Notes under the pieces: generated by a model
Databases searched by the model: none
What the model saw: the letters and a program-made list of their open reading frames with translations, nothing else
Told to the model about the DNA's origin: nothing
Shown: positions 454-6,257 of the stretch, piece by piece
How positions within the stretch are numbered: the first letter of the stretch is position 1
How the letters are laid out: every line of letters begins with the position of its first letter
Assembly (NCBI GenBank): GCA_003694825.1
Contig: RFJS01000299.1
Span: 1 to 6,257, forward strand
Direction of reading: 5' to 3'
Length of the DNA stretch: 6,257 nt
Origin: Verrucomicrobiota bacterium
GTDB taxonomy: Bacteria; Verrucomicrobiota; Verrucomicrobiia; Opitutales; Opitutaceae
Made by a program: the position numbers and the translations under genes

Positions 454-972
454 TTATTCAGCCTTCTGCTCTTCGCCTTCGGCCGGGGCCGCTTCCGCCT
501 GCTCGGCAGCGGCAGCTTCGCCGGCGGCGGCCGCGGCAGCCGCGTTGGCCTCGCTCTGGCTCGGGGCGGCCTTCGACTTCGCCCGGCCACGCGACTTCTT
601 GTAGCCGGTGTCGCTGGCGCTCACGAACTCGATGATCGCCATGTCGGCGGCATCGCCGAGGCGCGGAGTGGCGAGCTTGTAGATGCGGGTGTAGCCACCA
701 TTGCGCTCCTTGAACTCGCTGACGCGCTCGTCGAAGAGTGTCTTGACCGCCTCCTTGTCCCGCAGACGCGAGAGCGCGATGCGGCGGCGGTGAAGATCTC
801 CCTTTTTCGCCAGAGTGATCATTCGCTCCACGAAGGGCCGAAGCGCCTTGGCCTTGGCCGTGGTCGTGCGGATGCGACCCTTCTTGATCAGAGAGGAGGC
901 AAGGTTGGCGAGCAGGGCACTGCGGTGCTCCTTCTTGACGCCGAGAATGTGTCGATGCTTGCGGTGACGCAT
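454..972 (-). CDS. rplQ: Ribosomal protein bL17 with Ala/Glu-rich C-terminal tail
   Basis: This is bL17 of the large ribosomal subunit, near the peptide exit tunnel. The N-terminus MRHRKHRHILG and the following block (KKEHRSALLANLASSLI, then GRIRTTTAKAK) are the family signature, and GGYTRIYKL at about residues 92–100 is also characteristic. The conserved core ends near residue 118 (IIEFV). The product is 172 residues, against roughly 115–130 for most bL17. The extra part starts with a basic segment (about 124–134, YKKSRGRAKSK) and then becomes an Ala/Glu-rich acidic low-complexity tail to residue 172. The ATG at 972 is the only start compatible with the conserved N-terminus; it has no Shine-Dalgarno site and is preceded by CCACC. 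It is the last gene of the alpha operon, 122 bases after rpoA, and is followed by an intrinsic terminator. Confidence 0.97.
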   Translation of the reverse strand: MRHRKHRHILGVKKEHRSALLANLASSLIKKGRIRTTTAKAKALRPFVERMITLAKKGDLHRRRIALSRLRDKEAVKTLFDERVSEFKERNGGYTRIYKLATPRLGDAADMAIIEFVSASDTGYKKSRGRAKSKAAPSQSEANAAAAAAAGEAAAAEQAEAAPAEGEEQKAE

Positions 973-1094
973 GGTGGATTTGGTGCCGTTGCTTCCGGTG
1001 CGGCCGGGCCGGATATCCCGGTCCTGACGGAAGCGATGTTAACTCGTGTGATTCGTTGTGATCAGCGGGGAGGAATGGCGCGGGAGGCGCGAGT

Positions 1095-2096
1095 TCACAT
1101 GTCCTTGCGGGTGTCGAGCAACCGATCGTCGAACTTCATGCCGAGCGACAGGCCGAGCGCTTCGAGTTTGTCCTTGATCTCGTTGAGCGACTTTTTGCCG
1201 AAGTTGCGGTATTTGAGCATCTCCTGTTCGGTCTTCATGGCGAGTTCGCCGACCGTGGTGATGTTCGCGTTGTTCAGGCAGTTGGCCGCACGAACCGAAA
1301 GCTCGATCTCGTTGACCGACATATTGAGGAGCTTGCGCAGCTTGTTCTGCTCTTCGCTGACCTCGGCGGCCTGGTTTTCGAATTCGAAATTCTCGTCGGA
1401 GACGCGATCGAAGACATCGAGGTGATGCTTCAGGATGGCCGCAGCCTGCTTGAGGGCGTCTTCCGGCGTGATCCGGCCGTCCGTGGTGATCTCGAGGATG
1501 AGCTTGTCGTAGTCGGTGATCTGACCGACGCGGGTGTTCTCAACCGCGTATTTGACGAGACGCACCGGACTGAAGAGCGAGTCGATGGGGATGACGCCGA
1601 TGGGCTGATCCTCCTGCTTGTTTTCCTCACCCGGGCAATAGCCGCGGCCCGTGCGCACCTCGAGTTCGGCCGAGAAGGTCATATTGCGGTCGAGCGTGCA
1701 GATGAGCTGCTCCGGATTGACCACCTGGATGTTGGCATCCGGCTCGATGTCTCCCGCAGTGACCGGGCCCTCTTTGGTGACGTTGAGCCGAAGCCGCACC
1801 GTGTCGCGGGTATGCGAGATCAGGAGCACCTTCTTGAGGTTGAGCACGATGTCGGTGACATCCTCGACAACACCGTCGATGCTCTGGAACTCGTGGTTCA
1901 CGCCATCGATGCGCACCGAGGAGATGGCCGCGCCCTCGATGGAGCTGAGCAGCACGCGGCGAAGGCTGTTGCCGATGGTGTGGCCGTAGCCGGCCTCGAA
2001 AGGCTCCGCGATGAACCGGGCAAAGGTGGGCGAAGAGCCCTCCTCTACCTTGATGAGACGATTGGGAAGTTCGAATTTGCCAAGGCGTTTCGGCAT
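1095..2096 (-). CDS. rpoA: DNA-directed RNA polymerase subunit alpha
   Basis: The alpha subunit dimerises to nucleate RNA polymerase assembly and contacts UP elements and activators through its C-terminal domain. At 333 residues it is of normal length. The N-terminal domain (about 1–235) contains GYGHTIGNSLRRVLLSSIEG at residues 36–55, the dimerisation and assembly block. A Glu/Asn-rich linker (about 236–255) leads to the C-terminal domain, with SVRAANCLNNANI at 267–279 and FGKKSLNEIKDKLEALGLSL at 299–318. By alignment R269, N272 and K302 match E. coli R265, N268 and K298, so UP-element DNA binding should be retained. The start at ATG 2096 gives the expected MPKRLGKFELP N-terminus; no Shine-Dalgarno site precedes it. 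It lies between rpsD (75-base gap with a hairpin and an A/C-rich leader motif) and rplQ (122-base gap), the usual alpha-operon place. Confidence 0.98.
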   Translation of the reverse strand: MPKRLGKFELPNRLIKVEEGSSPTFARFIAEPFEAGYGHTIGNSLRRVLLSSIEGAAISSVRIDGVNHEFQSIDGVVEDVTDIVLNLKKVLLISHTRDTVRLRLNVTKEGPVTAGDIEPDANIQVVNPEQLICTLDRNMTFSAELEVRTGRGYCPGEENKQEDQPIGVIPIDSLFSPVRLVKYAVENTRVGQITDYDKLILEITTDGRITPEDALKQAAAILKHHLDVFDRVSDENFEFENQAAEVSEEQNKLRKLLNMSVNEIELSVRAANCLNNANITTVGELAMKTEQEMLKYRNFGKKSLNEIKDKLEALGLSLGMKFDDRLLDTRKDM

Positions 2097-2122
2097 GGCG
2101 GTGTAATGTGTGCGGCTTCTGC

Positions 2123-2143
2123 GGTTGGTTGTTTTTGTGAAAG
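2123..2143 (-). promoter_or_regulatory. A/C-rich leader motif upstream of rpoA
   Basis: On the mRNA strand this segment reads CTTTC, then two bases, then AAAACAACCAACC, ending 26 bases before the rpoA start codon. The same motif with one base change (AAAACAATCAACC, also preceded by CTTTC) lies before rpsM at 3804–3822. It is G-free and should be unstructured. A role as ribosome or S1 standby site, or as a regulatory protein site, is inference; the similarity itself is read directly. Confidence 0.4.
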
Positions 2144-2146
2144 CAA

Positions 2147-2163
2147 ACGGGGGGAATCCCCGT
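2147..2163 (-). other. Hairpin in the rpsD–rpoA gap, possible attenuator
   Basis: On the mRNA strand ACGGGG pairs with CCCCGT across a 5-base loop (ATTCC), followed by TTTGCTTTC. It starts 8 bases after the rpsD stop codon. The stem is strong but short (6 bp) and the tail is only partly U-rich. It could weakly terminate, pause polymerase, or protect an upstream 3' end, setting rpoA level relative to the ribosomal proteins. It is not a convincing full terminator. Confidence 0.35.
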
Positions 2164-2171
2164 GTCAGCCA

Positions 2172-2783
2172 TTACTGGCGGCTGTAGAATTCCACGATCA
2201 ACTGGTCGTTGATCGTCGGATCGAGCTCATCACGCACCGGCAGGCGGGTGACGGTGCCCCGGAGGGCGTCTTCCTGGCGCGTGAGCCACGGCGGCAGCTC
2301 GCGCATGCGCGTCTCCTCCAGGCAGCGCGTGGCCAGCTGACGGGAGCTCGGCGAGTCCTTCACGCTGATCTCGTCGCCCGGCTTGAGCTGGTAGCTCGGG
2401 ATGTCGACCTTTCGCCCATTCACGCGGATGTGACCGTGGTTGACGAACTGACGAGCGGCGCGGCGGGTGCGGGCGAAACCGAGCAGATAGACCACACTGT
2501 CGAGACGCGTCTCGAGAAGCTGCATGAAGCGCTCGCCGGTGACGCCGCGCTCACGCTTGGCCTTCTCGAAGGTCCGGCGGAACTGCTTCTCGAGCAGGCC
2601 ATACATGTAGCGAAGCTTCTGCTTCTCCATGAGGCCGAGCGCATATTCACTGTGCTTGCGGCGTGAGCGGGGGCCGTGAACTCCGGGCGGATAGGAGCGC
2701 TTCTCGAGCGCCTTGCAGGGGCCGAAGAGGGCCTGGCCAAAACGGCGGGAAATTCGAGCGGAAGGACCTGTGTAGCGTGCCAT
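2172..2783 (-). CDS. rpsD: Ribosomal protein uS4
   Basis: uS4 is a primary 16S rRNA binding protein that nucleates 30S assembly; in E. coli it also represses translation of the alpha operon. The 203-residue product matches the usual length. The N-terminus MARYTGPSARISRR and the GVHGPRSRRKHSEY block (about 34–47) are typical. KQKLRYMYGLLEKQFRRTF (about 54–72) is the conserved helical block. The S4 RNA-binding domain lies at about 92–150 (RLDSVVYLLGFARTRRAARQ, then FVNHGHIRVNGRKV). The C-terminus ends INDQLIVEFYSRQ. It has a single cysteine (C23) and no four-cysteine N-terminal cluster, so it is the zinc-free type. The start at ATG 2783 has no Shine-Dalgarno site. It sits 30 bases after rpsK and 75 bases before rpoA, the common alpha-operon order. 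Confidence 0.98.
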   Translation of the reverse strand: MARYTGPSARISRRFGQALFGPCKALEKRSYPPGVHGPRSRRKHSEYALGLMEKQKLRYMYGLLEKQFRRTFEKAKRERGVTGERFMQLLETRLDSVVYLLGFARTRRAARQFVNHGHIRVNGRKVDIPSYQLKPGDEISVKDSPSSRQLATRCLEETRMRELPPWLTRQEDALRGTVTRLPVRDELDPTINDQLIVEFYSRQ

Positions 2784-2813
2784 GGATGGACTCGTGCTAT
2801 TTCGGGATTGGGA

Positions 2814-3383
2814 TTAGACGCGACGGCGCTTGCGCGGGCGGCAACCGTTGTGCGGGACCGGCGTCACATCGACGATGGCGTTGATTTCAAGGCCGATGGC
2901 CTGCAGAGCGCGGATGGCGGAATCACGACCGAGGCCGGGGCCCTTCACGTGCACCGTAACCTCCTTCACGCCGTGAGACATCGCCGTGCGGGCGGCATCC
3001 TGGGAAACCACCTGCGCGGCATAGGCCGTCGACTTGCGCGAACCGCGGAAGTTGCACTTGCCGGCGCTGGACCAGGAGATGACGTTGCCCTTCGTGTCGG
3101 TGAAGGACACGATCGTGTTGTTGAAGGTGGCGTGGATGTGAACGATCGCCGTGGAGATGTTCTTGCTGCCCTTCGCCTTGCGGATCTTGATCGCGCCGAT
3201 CTCTTCCTTGAGGAGATCCTCGGCAGTGGGCGCAGACGGACGGGCCGGCGCCTCCTCGGTTTTCTCGGCGGGCGCCTTGGCGGCGTCGGCAGCGGCCGGT
3301 TTGGCCTCGGCCGGCGCGGCCTGCTGGGCCGGAGTTTCGACCTTTGCTTCAGCCGTTTTATCCTGTGCGTTCTCTTCAGCCAT
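2814..3383 (-). CDS. rpsK: Ribosomal protein uS11 with long N-terminal tail
   Basis: uS11 is part of the 30S platform and lines the mRNA exit channel near the 3' end of 16S rRNA. The core, about residues 64–189, matches the family closely: [22 protein letters not shown] (about 79–100), [15 protein letters not shown] (112–126), [15 protein letters not shown] (146–160) and the C-terminus [15 protein letters not shown]. The protein is 189 residues, against roughly 125–135 normally. The excess is an N-terminal tail of about 60 residues, rich in Ala, Glu, Pro and Lys, ending in TAEDLLKEE. The ATG at 3383 lies 26 bases after the rpsM stop. The tail is open and in frame with biased composition, so it looks genuinely translated, but an internal start cannot be excluded by sequence alone. 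A GTG or ATG close to the core is not evident. It lies between rpsM and rpsD as usual. Confidence 0.96.
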
Positions 3384-3409
3384 GGTGACGGTGATCGTGG
3401 ATCAATAGG

Positions 3410-3784
3410 TTATTTCTTGCGCTGGACACCGACGGTGCGGCGAGCGCCCTTGCGGGTGCGGGCGTTGGTGGAAGTGCGCTGACCGCGAACCGGAAGTCCG
3501 CGGCGGTGACGAATGCCGCGGTAGCAGTTGATGGCCTGCAGGCGCTTGAGGTTGGCCGCGATTTCCCGGCGCAGATCGCCTTCCACGGCCCACTTTTTCT
3601 CGGCGATGATCGCCATGAGCCGGTTGATCTGCTCTTCGGTCAGCTCGTGGGCGCGCATGTTCGGATCGATGCCGGCCTCTTCGACCAGGATCTTCGCACG
3701 CGTCGGCCCGATCCCGTAGATGGATCGGAGACTGTATTCGATTTTACTTTTGGAAGGAATGTCTACGCCGAGGAGACGAGGCAT
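3410..3784 (-). CDS. rpsM: Ribosomal protein uS13
   Basis: uS13 is in the head of the small subunit, where it contacts the large subunit (bridges B1a and B1b) and P-site tRNA through its basic C-terminal tail. At 124 residues the length is normal. The N-terminus [10 protein letters not shown], the helix-two-turn-helix segment [13 protein letters not shown] (about 21–33), [21 protein letters not shown] (about 81–101) and [12 protein letters not shown] (102–113) are all family signatures. It ends in the lysine-rich QRKK. The start at ATG 3784 is fixed by the conserved N-terminus. Its leader, 56 bases from the map stop, has no Shine-Dalgarno site and contains a 43-base stretch without G on the mRNA strand. 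It is the first gene of the alpha-operon part of the cluster. The leader does not show an obvious counterpart of the E. coli S4-binding pseudoknot. Confidence 0.98.
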
Positions 3785-3787
3785 GAC

Positions 3788-3830
3788 GTTGTGTTGGTTA
3801 GGTGGTTGATTGTTTTGGAAAGTTTTTTTT
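3788..3830 (-). promoter_or_regulatory. G-free leader of rpsM with shared A/C-rich motif
   Basis: The mRNA strand has no G over 43 bases between map and rpsM, starting with eight A residues, in an otherwise GC-rich region. Within it, 3804–3822 reads CTTTCC followed by AAAACAATCAACC, nearly the same as the segment before rpoA at 2123–2143. The motif ends 19 bases before the start codon. Such a segment cannot pair with the anti-Shine-Dalgarno and should stay single-stranded. A role in ribosome loading or autoregulation is inferred. I found no clear -35/-10 promoter in it. Confidence 0.45.
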
Positions 3831-3840
3831 CACGGAGCGG

Positions 3841-4626
3841 TCAGCCGGCGCCGACAGCTCGTGGAGCGGGGATCGTGAGGATCTCCGGCTCGTTTGCGGT
3901 GATGAGCACGGTGTGTTCGAAGTGCGCCGAGGGCTGATGGTCGCGAGTGACGACGGTCCAGCCATCGTCGAGCACCCGGACGGCGGCAGAGCCCATGTTG
4001 ACCATCGGTTCGATCGCGAGGGTCATCCCCGGCTTCAAGCGAGGTCCCGATCCACGACGGCCGAAATTGGGAATCTGCGGCTCTTCGTGCATGGAACGAC
4101 CAACCCCGTGACCGACGAACTCGCGAACGACGGAAAATCCGTTGCGCTCGACGTGCCGTTGCACGGCATTGGAGATATCGCCGACACGGTTTCCGCTGCG
4201 CGCCTGATCGATGCCGATCTGCAGAGCTTCCTCGGTGACGCGGAGAAGCTTCTCGGCGCGGGGATCGATTTCGCCGACCGGGACGGTGCAGGCGTTGTCG
4301 CCGATAAATCCCTGGTAGGAGACGGCGACATCGAGCGACACGAGATCGCCGTTTCGCAGCACCCGCCTGGGTGAACCGATGCCGTGGACGACCTCGTCGT
4401 TGACGGAAATGCACGTGTAGGCCGGAAACCGACGGGAACCGACGCGATAGTTGTAACAGGCACTGGTGGCGCCCTCCTCCATCATCAGATCCCGTCCGAG
4501 CTGATCGAGCTCGTAGGTCGTAACGCCTTCGCGCACAGCCGCACGCAACCCGGCAAGCACGTTTGCCGCGATCCGGCAGGCTTCGCGCATCCGAGCGATT
4601 TCGGCCTCTGTCTTTACCGGAATCAT
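3841..4626 (-). CDS. map: Methionine aminopeptidase, type I
   Basis: This enzyme removes the initiator methionine from nascent proteins when the second residue is small. The 261-residue product has all five metal ligands in family context: D99 (VSLDV), D110 (FIGDNA), H173 (VGHGVG), E206 (AIEPM) and E237 (HFEHTV). The substrate-contact H81 (EVVHGIGS) is also present. Type I is supported by the absence of the large insert of type II. The start is the ATG at 4626, giving MIPVKTEAEIARMREACRIA, a standard MAP-I N-terminus. This ATG overlaps the TGA of the upstream gene as ATGA, which supports translational coupling. A longer in-frame extension back to 4764 is open but would add an Arg-rich segment unlike the family and run deep into the upstream gene. 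It has no Shine-Dalgarno site. It is followed by rpsM after 56 bases, without infA or rpmJ between them. Confidence 0.97.
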   Translation of the reverse strand: MIPVKTEAEIARMREACRIAANVLAGLRAAVREGVTTYELDQLGRDLMMEEGATSACYNYRVGSRRFPAYTCISVNDEVVHGIGSPRRVLRNGDLVSLDVAVSYQGFIGDNACTVPVGEIDPRAEKLLRVTEEALQIGIDQARSGNRVGDISNAVQRHVERNGFSVVREFVGHGVGRSMHEEPQIPNFGRRGSGPRLKPGMTLAIEPMVNMGSAAVRVLDDGWTVVTRDHQPSAHFEHTVLITANEPEILTIPAPRAVGAG

Positions 4627-5276
4627 CGATCGACGGTGACGGCGGCGGCGACTCCGGCCACCTCCTCGAAGGAGGTCCGGGAGGCATCGAACCGGAAGAG
4701 TTGCCCGCGCTCGCGGTAATAGGCGGCCGTCTGCTCGGCCACAGCCGCGCGTTCGGCGAACCACGTGTCGACTTCCGCCACAGCCTGTTCGCTGTCATCG
4801 CTCATCGTGGCGCCACACAGCTCGCATTGATGGGTTTCGCCCGCCTCAACGTAAGCCACCTGGCCGTGATCTCGACAGGCGACCCGACGGCGCGCCTGGC
4901 TGAGCGCTTCGTCCCGGGACATATCGAGCCAGAGACATCCACTGAGGGATTCGTCGCGACAGTCGAGCCACTCGTCCAGGAGGGTGGCCTCAAACGTGTC
5001 GGCGGGAAAGCCCTGCAGAAGAAAACCATGGTTTTTCTTTCGCGAGAAAAACCAGTGGCGCATATCGCGAATGAGCCGTTCGCGGGCGCCGGGCCCACGG
5101 TGCACGGTCCGTCCCTCCCCGGAATTGTCGGAGAGGTCGGTGTTGATGTGCTCAAAATGCTTCAAAGAACGAACTGATCTGGCAACGCGGTGTTCCAGAA
5201 CCCCGGCAGCTCCCAGCAGCACGAACTTCGCTCGGGCGCTTGCGAGGGGCGAAAAGGAAACCGAATTGGCAGCCAT
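4623..5276 (-). CDS. Degenerate adenylate-kinase-like protein, probably catalytically inactive
   Basis: It occupies the adk position between secY and map. Resemblance to adenylate kinase is visible along its length (217 residues, numbered from the ATG at 5276): beta-1 strand KFVLLGAAG (17–25), HGFLLQGFPADTFEATLLDEWL (83–104, compare GFLLDGFPRT), RRRV (129–132), a LID with C134-x2-H137 and C151-x2-C154, and EQTAAYYRERGQLFRFDAS (181–199, compare TAPLIDYYRKKG). Key residues are gone. The P-loop GxPGxGKGT is replaced by GAAGVLEHRV, without the lysine. DGFPRT has become QGFPAD, losing the Asp and Arg. The Arg of the STGDxLR helix, and those in the LID and the following helix, are not found. Adenylate kinase activity is therefore unlikely. 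Neither other frame encodes a proper P-loop, so a single frameshift does not explain it. A TTG at 5303, overlapping the secY stop as TTGA, is an alternative start. The 3' end overlaps map by four bases. Confidence 0.85.
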   Translation of the reverse strand: MAANSVSFSPLASARAKFVLLGAAGVLEHRVARSVRSLKHFEHINTDLSDNSGEGRTVHRGPGARERLIRDMRHWFFSRKKNHGFLLQGFPADTFEATLLDEWLDCRDESLSGCLWLDMSRDEALSQARRRVACRDHGQVAYVEAGETHQCELCGATMSDDSEQAVAEVDTWFAERAAVAEQTAAYYRERGQLFRFDASRTSFEEVAGVAAAVTVDR

Positions 5277-5299
5277 ACCGGGTCGATGCAAGAGCGAAA

Positions 5300-6257
5300 T
5301 CAAAAACGCTGGAGAGCCCAGGCGAGCAGCCCCACGAGGAAGATCGCGCCGAGGGTCGCGTAGAGCACGCCGGCATTCTTGATTTCAGCGGACGCCGAGA
5401 GACTGGCCGCCCGCCCTGATGCACTGCGGCCCCGGATCCGGCCCTTCTTGAGGAAGCCGTCGTAGTGCCGCTGCAGGAGGTAGGTCTCGATCTGCCGCAT
5501 GGTGTCGAGCACAACACCGACGGTGATGAGCATGCCCGTGCCACCGAAGAAGGTGGCGATGCGGGTCGGGACGTGATACTCGAAGAGAAGAAAGTCCGGG
5601 AAAATCGCGATGATGGTGAGGAAGATCGCGCCGAAAAGCGTCAGCCGCGTCATCACGAAATCCAGAAAACGGGCCGTGGGCTCGCCAGGCCGCACCCCGG
5701 GGATGTAACCGCCATACTTCTTGAGGTCATCGGCAATCTGGATCGGTTTGAACATCACCGAGACCCAGAAGTAGGAGAAGAAAAGGATGAGCACCGAATA
5801 CAGGACATAATACATCCAGTGCCCGCGCAGGAGGTTCGCCGCGAAGTCGGTGAGGAACGGCAGATCGAACGCCGCCCCAAGGTGCGAGAAGATCTGCTGC
5901 GGGAAGAGCAGAATCGCGCTGGCGAAGATCACCGGCATCACGCCGGAGTAGTTCACCTTCAACGGCAGGTAGGAGCTTTGGCCGCCATAGACCTTCCGCC
6001 CGACCACCCGCTTGGCATACTGTACGGGAATCTTACGCACCGCCTGGGTGATGGCGACGATGCTGGCGATGACCCCGATCAACAGACCACCCATGAGCAC
6101 CGCGTGGGGCAGGCCGAGACGGGTGCCCACGCCGACCGGCTGGGTGAAGAGCGTCCATGTGGCGGCAACTGCTCCCGGCAGATCCGCGAGGATGCCGATG
6201 GTGATCAAGAGGGAGACGCCGTTGCCGATGCCCCGCTGGGTGATCTGTTCGCCCAGC
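5300..6257 (-). CDS. secY: Protein translocase channel subunit SecY, 5' end missing
   Basis: SecY forms the protein-conducting channel of the Sec translocon in the cytoplasmic membrane. The reading frame is open to the window edge; the first codons give LGEQITQRGIGNGVSLLI, a conserved SecY segment near residue 170 of the E. coli protein. About 318 residues are present, so roughly the first 165–180 lie outside. Conserved cytoplasmic loops are visible: PVQYAKRVVGRKVYGGQSSYLPLKVNYSGVMPVIFAS in outline, with the Y-A-K-R and LPLKVN motifs, and later LKKYGGYIPGVRPGEPTARF with the RPGE motif, followed by MTRLTLFGA. Several hydrophobic segments alternate with these. After the usual end (LKKGRIRGR) there are 41 more residues, including a strongly hydrophobic segment AGVLYATLGAIFLVGLLAWA, a possible eleventh membrane helix. 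The TTG at 6208 is an internal codon, not the start. The TGA at 5302 abuts or overlaps the next gene. Confidence 0.97.
   Translation of the reverse strand, partial: LGEQITQRGIGNGVSLLITIGILADLPGAVAATWTLFTQPVGVGTRLGLPHAVLMGGLLIGVIASIVAITQAVRKIPVQYAKRVVGRKVYGGQSSYLPLKVNYSGVMPVIFASAILLFPQQIFSHLGAAFDLPFLTDFAANLLRGHWMYYVLYSVLILFFSYFWVSVMFKPIQIADDLKKYGGYIPGVRPGEPTARFLDFVMTRLTLFGAIFLTIIAIFPDFLLFEYHVPTRIATFFGGTGMLITVGVVLDTMRQIETYLLQRHYDGFLKKGRIRGRSASGRAASLSASAEIKNAGVLYATLGAIFLVGLLAWALQRF

Follow-up and report, generated by a model that had tools for sequence, protein, structure and literature searches.

A very probably dead adenylate kinase gene between secY and map in Opitutaceae carries frozen codons, a boxA-like motif and an in-frame hairpin

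The 6,257-nucleotide contig RFJS01000299.1 (assembly GCA_003694825.1), which was analysed over its whole length and is hereafter called the window, comes from a member of the Opitutaceae (Verrucomicrobiota) and carries, between secY and map, a gene in the position of adenylate kinase (adk), referred to here as the slot gene. Its product is very probably a catalytically dead adenylate kinase. We favour, at a probability of roughly 36%, the explanation that this dead adk persists because its coding sequence may double as a Nus-type RNA element controlling the downstream genes, with the folded protein as a second layer. The nucleotide-level constraint, the boxA-like motif and the in-frame hairpin described below go beyond an earlier, model-made reading of the sequence (the earlier note). 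Judged by titles and the beginnings of abstracts, no paper on a dead Opitutaceae adk or on this element was found in the literature.

Relatives of the slot gene were sought in 57 genomes (37 Opitutaceae, including that of the window, and 20 from other families of the order; match threshold E up to 0.01) and were matched in 33; 30 of these loci, one per genome and including the window, were kept as a set. A second set comprised the best 80 of 159 stretches encoding a relative, labelled Opitutaceae, Opitutus, Lacunisphaera, Cephaloticoccus, Opitutia, Opitutae, or merely Verrucomicrobia or bacterium. The two sets share at least 11 loci. In all 30 loci, which named records place in the Opitutaceae, secY, the slot gene and map follow in this order on one strand. 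The slot gene and the nucleotide features in and next to it occupy the following positions in the window:

4623..5303, minus strand: slot gene, a homologue of adenylate kinase that is very probably catalytically dead, 226 aa when a TTG is taken as start (open reading frame, Pfam and NCBIfam profiles, AlphaFold, alignment)
4623..5276, minus strand: slot gene from the likelier ATG start, 217 aa (start regions of the window and of relatives L005 and L024)
5162..5170, minus strand: boxA-like GTTCTTTGA, 129 nt past the secY stop
5290..5295, minus strand: GCTCTT at the junction of secY and the slot gene, the place of GYTCTTTA in many relatives; weak in the window
5114..5136, minus strand: hairpin CCTCTCCG/CGGGGAGG, from the window's own fold, assigned to stem P2 of the relatives by position only
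5029..5053, minus strand: inverted repeat TGGTTTTTC/GAAAAACCA within the slot gene, read from the sequence and paired in the window fold
4982..5179, minus strand: weak match (21.8 bits) to RNA model R1, which was built from relatives

The core GTTCTTT lies 115–139 nt past the secY stop in 30 of 30 Opitutaceae loci (at 129 nt in the window). Of the 13 intact secY-adk-map loci none has G[CT]TCTTT, and of the 15 empty slots two have it. A related motif, GYTCTTTA, occurs between −25 and +45 relative to the secY stop in 45 of the 80 loci, compared with 8 occurrences on the same strand of the remaining 403 kb. Its extended form GYTCTTTAANA, the boxA consensus published for gammaproteobacteria (in the parts of PMC5725501 drawn on here), stands at the secY stop in 9 of the 80 loci, and the window has merely GCTCTTGC; the consensus is a gammaproteobacterial one. 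The slot loci resemble the boxA sites of NusB-S10 (NusE) in their GYTCTTTA and GTTCTTTG cores, in often having two sites per locus and in their proximity to ribosomal-protein genes. They differ in that one slot site lies inside a coding sequence and is followed by a hairpin, and in that NusB-S10 binding is here a prediction; the boxA cases in those parts of PMC5725501 are rRNA, suhB and sites at most 50 bp from a gene start. The 16S leader of one Opitutaceae locus (L170), the sole leader that was readable, carries GCTCTTTGAA and GTTCTTTGA; 16S rRNA was not found in any of five genomes by family search, and the 16S start pattern was not found in seven of eight genomes. Two further observations concern short motifs near the secY stop. 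L073 and L074, which represent two empty-slot families, carry GTTCTTTG in their short secY-map gap, 34–35 nt past the secY stop. In addition, CTTTAC ends about 10 nt before the slot start codon, near the expected Shine-Dalgarno site, in 75 of 80 loci, with an expectation of 0.011 per 67-nt window.

The codons at the core are nearly fixed, with CGT in 75, TCT in 79 and TTG in 73 of the 80 loci. Throughout this set, a conservation of 95% or more is reached by 20 of 140 third codon positions of the slot gene, by 12 of 297 of secY and by 5 of 253 of map (Trp and Met codons included for all three genes), and at first and second codon positions the slot gene is less conserved than secY and map. The earlier note had proposed a check for purifying selection in the form of a dN/dS well below 1, which did not emerge: the median slot-gene dN/dS is 0.52 over 1980 pairs (secY 0.14, map 0.18), a set taken partly for low slot-gene divergence, which biases the synonymous-rate comparison, and the ratio is not lower partly because the synonymous sites are constrained too. 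Fourfold-degenerate sites were compared in the 75 of 80 loci with secY and map long enough, using pairs picked by secY or map divergence alone; the conserved blocks in this comparison were defined after inspection of the data. Among 27 secY-picked pairs, fourfold divergence was 0.198 for the slot gene, 0.343 for secY and 0.332 for map, the slot gene falling under secY in 23 and under map in 25; the corresponding values were 0.175, 0.401 and 0.282 in 28 map-picked pairs, and 0.375, 0.521 and 0.511 over all 2775 pairs. The synonymous constraint in the pairs picked by secY or map is smaller than in the slot-biased pair set, yet still clear. Overlapping reading frames were considered as a cause of the frozen codons and rejected: the other sense frames are open in only 3 and 0 of the 80 loci, and the three antisense frames stay open across the region in 1, 58 and 40 loci and across the entire gene in 13, 2 and 0.

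Frozen codons might also be a side effect of translation or local mutation in a pure protein pseudoenzyme that has gained a new partner, such as SecY, Map, the ribosome or the long kinase described below, and this explanation is a possible one, held here tentatively. The protein has twelve invariant non-catalytic residues and confident predicted folds, both detailed below. Moreover, in 19 of 23 unpaired codons whose amino acid is at least 93% conserved, the third letter varies freely; the protein must therefore be under selection too, and RNA alone is an insufficient explanation, a point that counts against the RNA element as the whole answer. However, a pseudoenzyme does not readily account for single codons (CGT, TCT, GAG, CAC, GTC) frozen in 75–80 of 80 loci, nor for the pairing and covariation counts of stem P2 given below. 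Nor does it account for the Arg codon at the core, whose first letter shifts (TGT in 3 and AGT in 1 of the 80 loci; AGT in L024) while the following GT TCT stays.

Downstream of the boxA core, RNAalifold predicted a multibranch arrangement of four stems (P1–P4), in which 91.9% of cells are paired in 69 sequences, compared with at most 55.3% when the structure is slid along the alignment. In 78 sequences, the four stems are 94.5% paired; synonymous-codon shuffles give 69.6%, and none of 500 reaches the observed share. For a sample of 20 sequences, the folding energy is lower than that of such shuffles by a mean of 2.3 standard deviations. Stem P2 taken alone (69 sequences, 84.5% of cells paired) has a covariation of 0.207; shuffles average 0.114, with none of 500 reaching the observed value, and slid versions attain no more than 0.152. 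P2 pairing is kept in the main clade despite some letter changes, which is more typical of RNA than of DNA. The RNA model matched 28 of the 57 genomes at E below 1e-12, all Opitutaceae and all in the slot; many of these genomes, or their like, built the model, and the matches therefore indicate a single-copy location rather than independent support. A signal acting at the DNA level, such as an internal promoter or an operator of the downstream genes, would be compatible with the nearly invariant blocks, with strong matches that are single-copy and fixed in position, and with a location upstream of the rpsM-rplQ genes, but the P2 pairs still form as letters change, and we consider this reading unlikely.

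The predicted multibranch fold and the location upstream of map and rpsM-rpsK-rpsD-rpoA-rplQ would likewise suit an RNA element that serves as a feedback site for a ribosomal protein, such as S4 or another downstream product, with the likeness to boxA being incidental. This too appears improbable, given that two boxA-like sites recur and that the longest match to one 16S-containing stretch is 12 nt (E 0.03); mimicry of rRNA was rejected on that match, in a comparison that covered this one 16S-containing stretch. No tRNA or tmRNA was found in the five loci searched.

Several observations weigh against the proposed RNA element. Covariation of the whole structure (0.069) is nearly equal to that of the structure slid by −3 (0.067), pairs with two-sided changes number 6 in the structure and 6 to 10 in slid controls, and 481 of 500 shuffles have at least as many further pair types as the whole structure; among these measures, the share of paired cells alone sets the structure clearly apart from the slid controls. 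P1, P3 and P4 barely vary, and the outer pairs of P2 are broken in 16–30 of 69 sequences. When 78 sequences were folded singly, P2 formed in 70, P1 and P3 in 32 each, and P4 in 0. The structure was also derived from the sequences used to test it, and the shuffle results therefore support it without proving it. After the boxA core the bases are not fixed, GA standing there in 62 of 80 loci. A search of the window, L011, L152, L098 and L087 against Rfam 15, with E up to 0.1, found no family. In the window itself, the RNA folds no better than synonymous shuffles (z −0.34), the 3' partner of P1 is missing by eye, and the match to R1 is weak. The window copy is the least typical member of the family, being longer, with part of a LID and with little RNA structure beyond the boxA core and the hairpin at the place of P2; it is the short-form clade, rather than the window, that supplies the strongest nucleotide evidence.

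At the protein level, the earlier note had placed a gene in the adk slot between secY and map, and the open reading frame at 4623–5303 on the minus strand is real. Canonical adk (PF00406, TIGR01351; secY-adk-map) is its closest likeness in synteny and predicted fold, and the slot proteins share with it a scattered core (GFxLxGFP) and a YYRERG-like C-terminus. Profile searches gave clear matches, but the window protein remained below all cut-offs: its Pfam ADK match is 16.7 bits, under the cut-off of 26.8, and its match to the NCBIfam adenylate kinase models (E 1.6e-11) is far under theirs. Two short relatives reached 45.7 and 46.7 bits with Pfam ADK, over the cut-off, and still fell under those of NCBIfam. 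The AlphaFold model of the window protein has a mean pLDDT of 85.5 (29 sequences in the alignment), and that of a relative without a LID has a pLDDT of 89.1. Among the PDB matches listed for each model, 50 of 50 are adenylate kinases, in agreement with the fold proposed earlier.

Residues were compared in an alignment of 91 slot proteins (the 80-locus set, the window and ten more, some contigs twice) with two canonical adks, whose aligned positions we take to be R36, R123, R156 and R167 in E. coli adenylate kinase numbering. As had been proposed, the P-loop lysine is missing (L in the window; the motif G4GK[ST] in 0 of 80 relatives), and the Asp and Arg of DGFPR are replaced by Q and A in the window, the Arg being replaced in 87 of 91 slot proteins and kept in 4. 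The proposed loss of the other catalytic arginines held for three positions in the window: the R36-type is N, and the R156- and R167-types are D and W in the window and the other long form and gaps in the remaining 89, with Arg in 0 of 91. In two alignments, however, the R123-type position (in RRRV) is R in both long forms, the window and L005 (a third alignment has a gap there in all 91 proteins), and it therefore appears that not every catalytic arginine is lost. The R36-type Arg is kept in 38 of 91 slot proteins, and L086, as the sole relative, has GKS close to the P-loop; both facts weigh against the favoured explanation. The zinc LID listed in the earlier note is kept in part in the window and one relative, the remainder being gone, and most copies, of 137–175 aa, have no LID. 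Metal sensing, one of the roles suggested before, fits poorly because the LID is deleted in most relatives. Twelve residues are invariant in 29 of 29 aligned slot proteins, at positions different from those of canonical adks (including R, W, W and R), and none is a known catalytic Lys or Arg. Since the adenylate kinase fold is matched and catalytic residues are lost, the predicted fold is retained, and the protein has very probably lost its chemistry on nucleotides. Weak residual nucleotide kinase activity would be in line with the fold, with the database names adenylate kinase or nucleoside monophosphate kinase, and with the R123-type Arg of the window; with the P-loop Lys, DGFPR and the R156/R167-type residues gone, it is very hard to credit.

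A working adk was expected elsewhere in the genome. The single ADK match over the cut-off in the window's genome is a 438-aa frame on contig C137 (L001) with intact GAPGAGKGT and DGFPRT, which bears out this expectation in part, but the stretch at its AMP site differs from that of canonical adks: STGDxxR is absent, and AMP use by this long kinase is therefore inferred. Kinases were counted by profile position and frame length, with canonical-type adk defined by E below 1e-20 and including tandem forms. A long kinase-like form of roughly 400–440 aa occurs in 32 of 37 Opitutaceae genomes; canonical-type adk is present in 13 and was not found in 24. The single-contig genomes G004 and G020 are among these 24, every one of which has the long kinase. 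Among the best 120 of 7999 matches, 119 other long-form proteins are 69–81% identical to the C137 protein and include Opitutaceae, Pelagicoccus and Puniceicoccaceae. This long form, a nucleoside monophosphate kinase of about 400–440 aa from the same order (P0132, P0199 and others), belongs to the ADK superfamily with intact GAPGxGKGT and DGFPR. It stands apart in its long C-terminal extension, the missing STGDxxR of canonical adks and, in the window's genome, its location away from secY-map. The long kinase probably supplies the essential adenylate kinase activity. Separately, tandem two-domain adenylate kinases (open frames of 413–576 aa) were observed in L035, L036, L037, L038, L039, L040 and L041, and in L038–L041 the P-loop Lys of the second domain is replaced by Arg.

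The slot gene is maintained rather than decaying, as the earlier note had suggested: besides its presence in 30 of 30 slot loci, the frame reads to its stop in 79 of the best 80 of 159 stretches, map following at −7 to +15 nt, and L160 runs off the contig end; the broken-frame pattern of a pseudogene was not seen. L024 (G013) was considered as a simple pseudogene and rejected, as an in-frame TAG precedes a downstream ATG that begins an open frame of 159 aa, and the gene is therefore not broken. Seven Opitutaceae genomes have no such locus (three have map without secY nearby, and four have no map match at E 1e-30, one of which carries the RNA element at a contig end), and they do not represent clear losses of the slot gene. 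In other families of the order, the slot is empty, secY being followed by map with gaps of 0–228 nt (15 loci), and intact secY-adk-map was found in 13 of 28 adk loci examined (other orders and G051). The emptied slots, together with variable gene lengths, close spacing to map and a dN/dS of about 0.5, could be taken to indicate a slowly decaying remnant, kept merely for the passage of ribosomes from secY to map. The intact frames, invariant residues and frozen codons argue against this, and it seems quite improbable, even though the 80 loci were picked by similarity and broken copies may therefore be under-represented.

The remaining genes of the window lie on the same strand as the slot gene:

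5300..6256, minus strand: secY, partial (Pfam SecY)
3841..4629, minus strand: map, methionine aminopeptidase (Pfam Peptidase_M24), overlapping the end of the slot gene
454..3784, minus strand: downstream ribosomal-protein and rpoA genes (Pfam)
3410..3784, minus strand: rpsM (Pfam)
2814..3383, minus strand: rpsK (Pfam)
2172..2783, minus strand: rpsD (Pfam)
1095..2096, minus strand: rpoA (Pfam)
454..972, minus strand: rplQ (Pfam)

The map start at 4629 overlaps the 3' end of the slot gene by 7 nt. At the other end, the ATG at 5276 is a likelier start than the TTG because the close relatives L005 and L024 also start there. In other bacteria, infA and rpmJ often sit between map and rpsM; here, rpsM begins 56 nt after map (window positions 3785–3840 lie between), and infA and rpmJ are not in that gap. 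An 84-aa frame at 56–310 on the minus strand has no Pfam match; it contains a hydrophobic stretch and, towards its end, pairs of cysteines. The source genome of the window is a draft, 80.6% complete and in 601 contigs.

The favoured explanation, a dead adk kept for a Nus-type RNA element, can be set out as a sequence of putative events. The long kinase may have taken over the adenylate kinase job, leaving the old adk free to lose its chemistry, and the secY-map transcript of Opitutaceae may have gained boxA-like sites together with a hairpin. NusB-S10 would then bind GTTCTTT, and likewise the GYTCTTTA at the secY stop, as boxA sites and, with its partners, would load on RNA polymerase before map-rpsM-rpsK-rpsD-rpoA-rplQ and could alter the read-through or expression of these genes. 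That the element acts as RNA, the order of these events, the binding and the effect are all proposed here from sequence patterns. According to the parts of PMC6614801 drawn on here, the synthesis of rRNA in E. coli involves the joint action of Nus factors, S4 and SuhB. As a long shot, the slot protein could be an RNA-binding regulator that recognises the element in its own codons and sets the expression of the downstream ribosomal-protein genes; if true, a single gene would encode both a regulator and its target.

Collectively, these results raise a naming problem, as every named protein among the 120 relatives listed goes by adenylate kinase or nucleoside monophosphate kinase, although 24 of 37 Opitutaceae genomes show no canonical-type adk elsewhere. 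The long kinase, as its would-be replacement, may prove to be an adenylate kinase of an unusual type. Across the family, the gene of a housekeeping enzyme seems to have become functionless while its locus may have gained a role at the nucleic-acid level, and it would exemplify a gene kept for its RNA.

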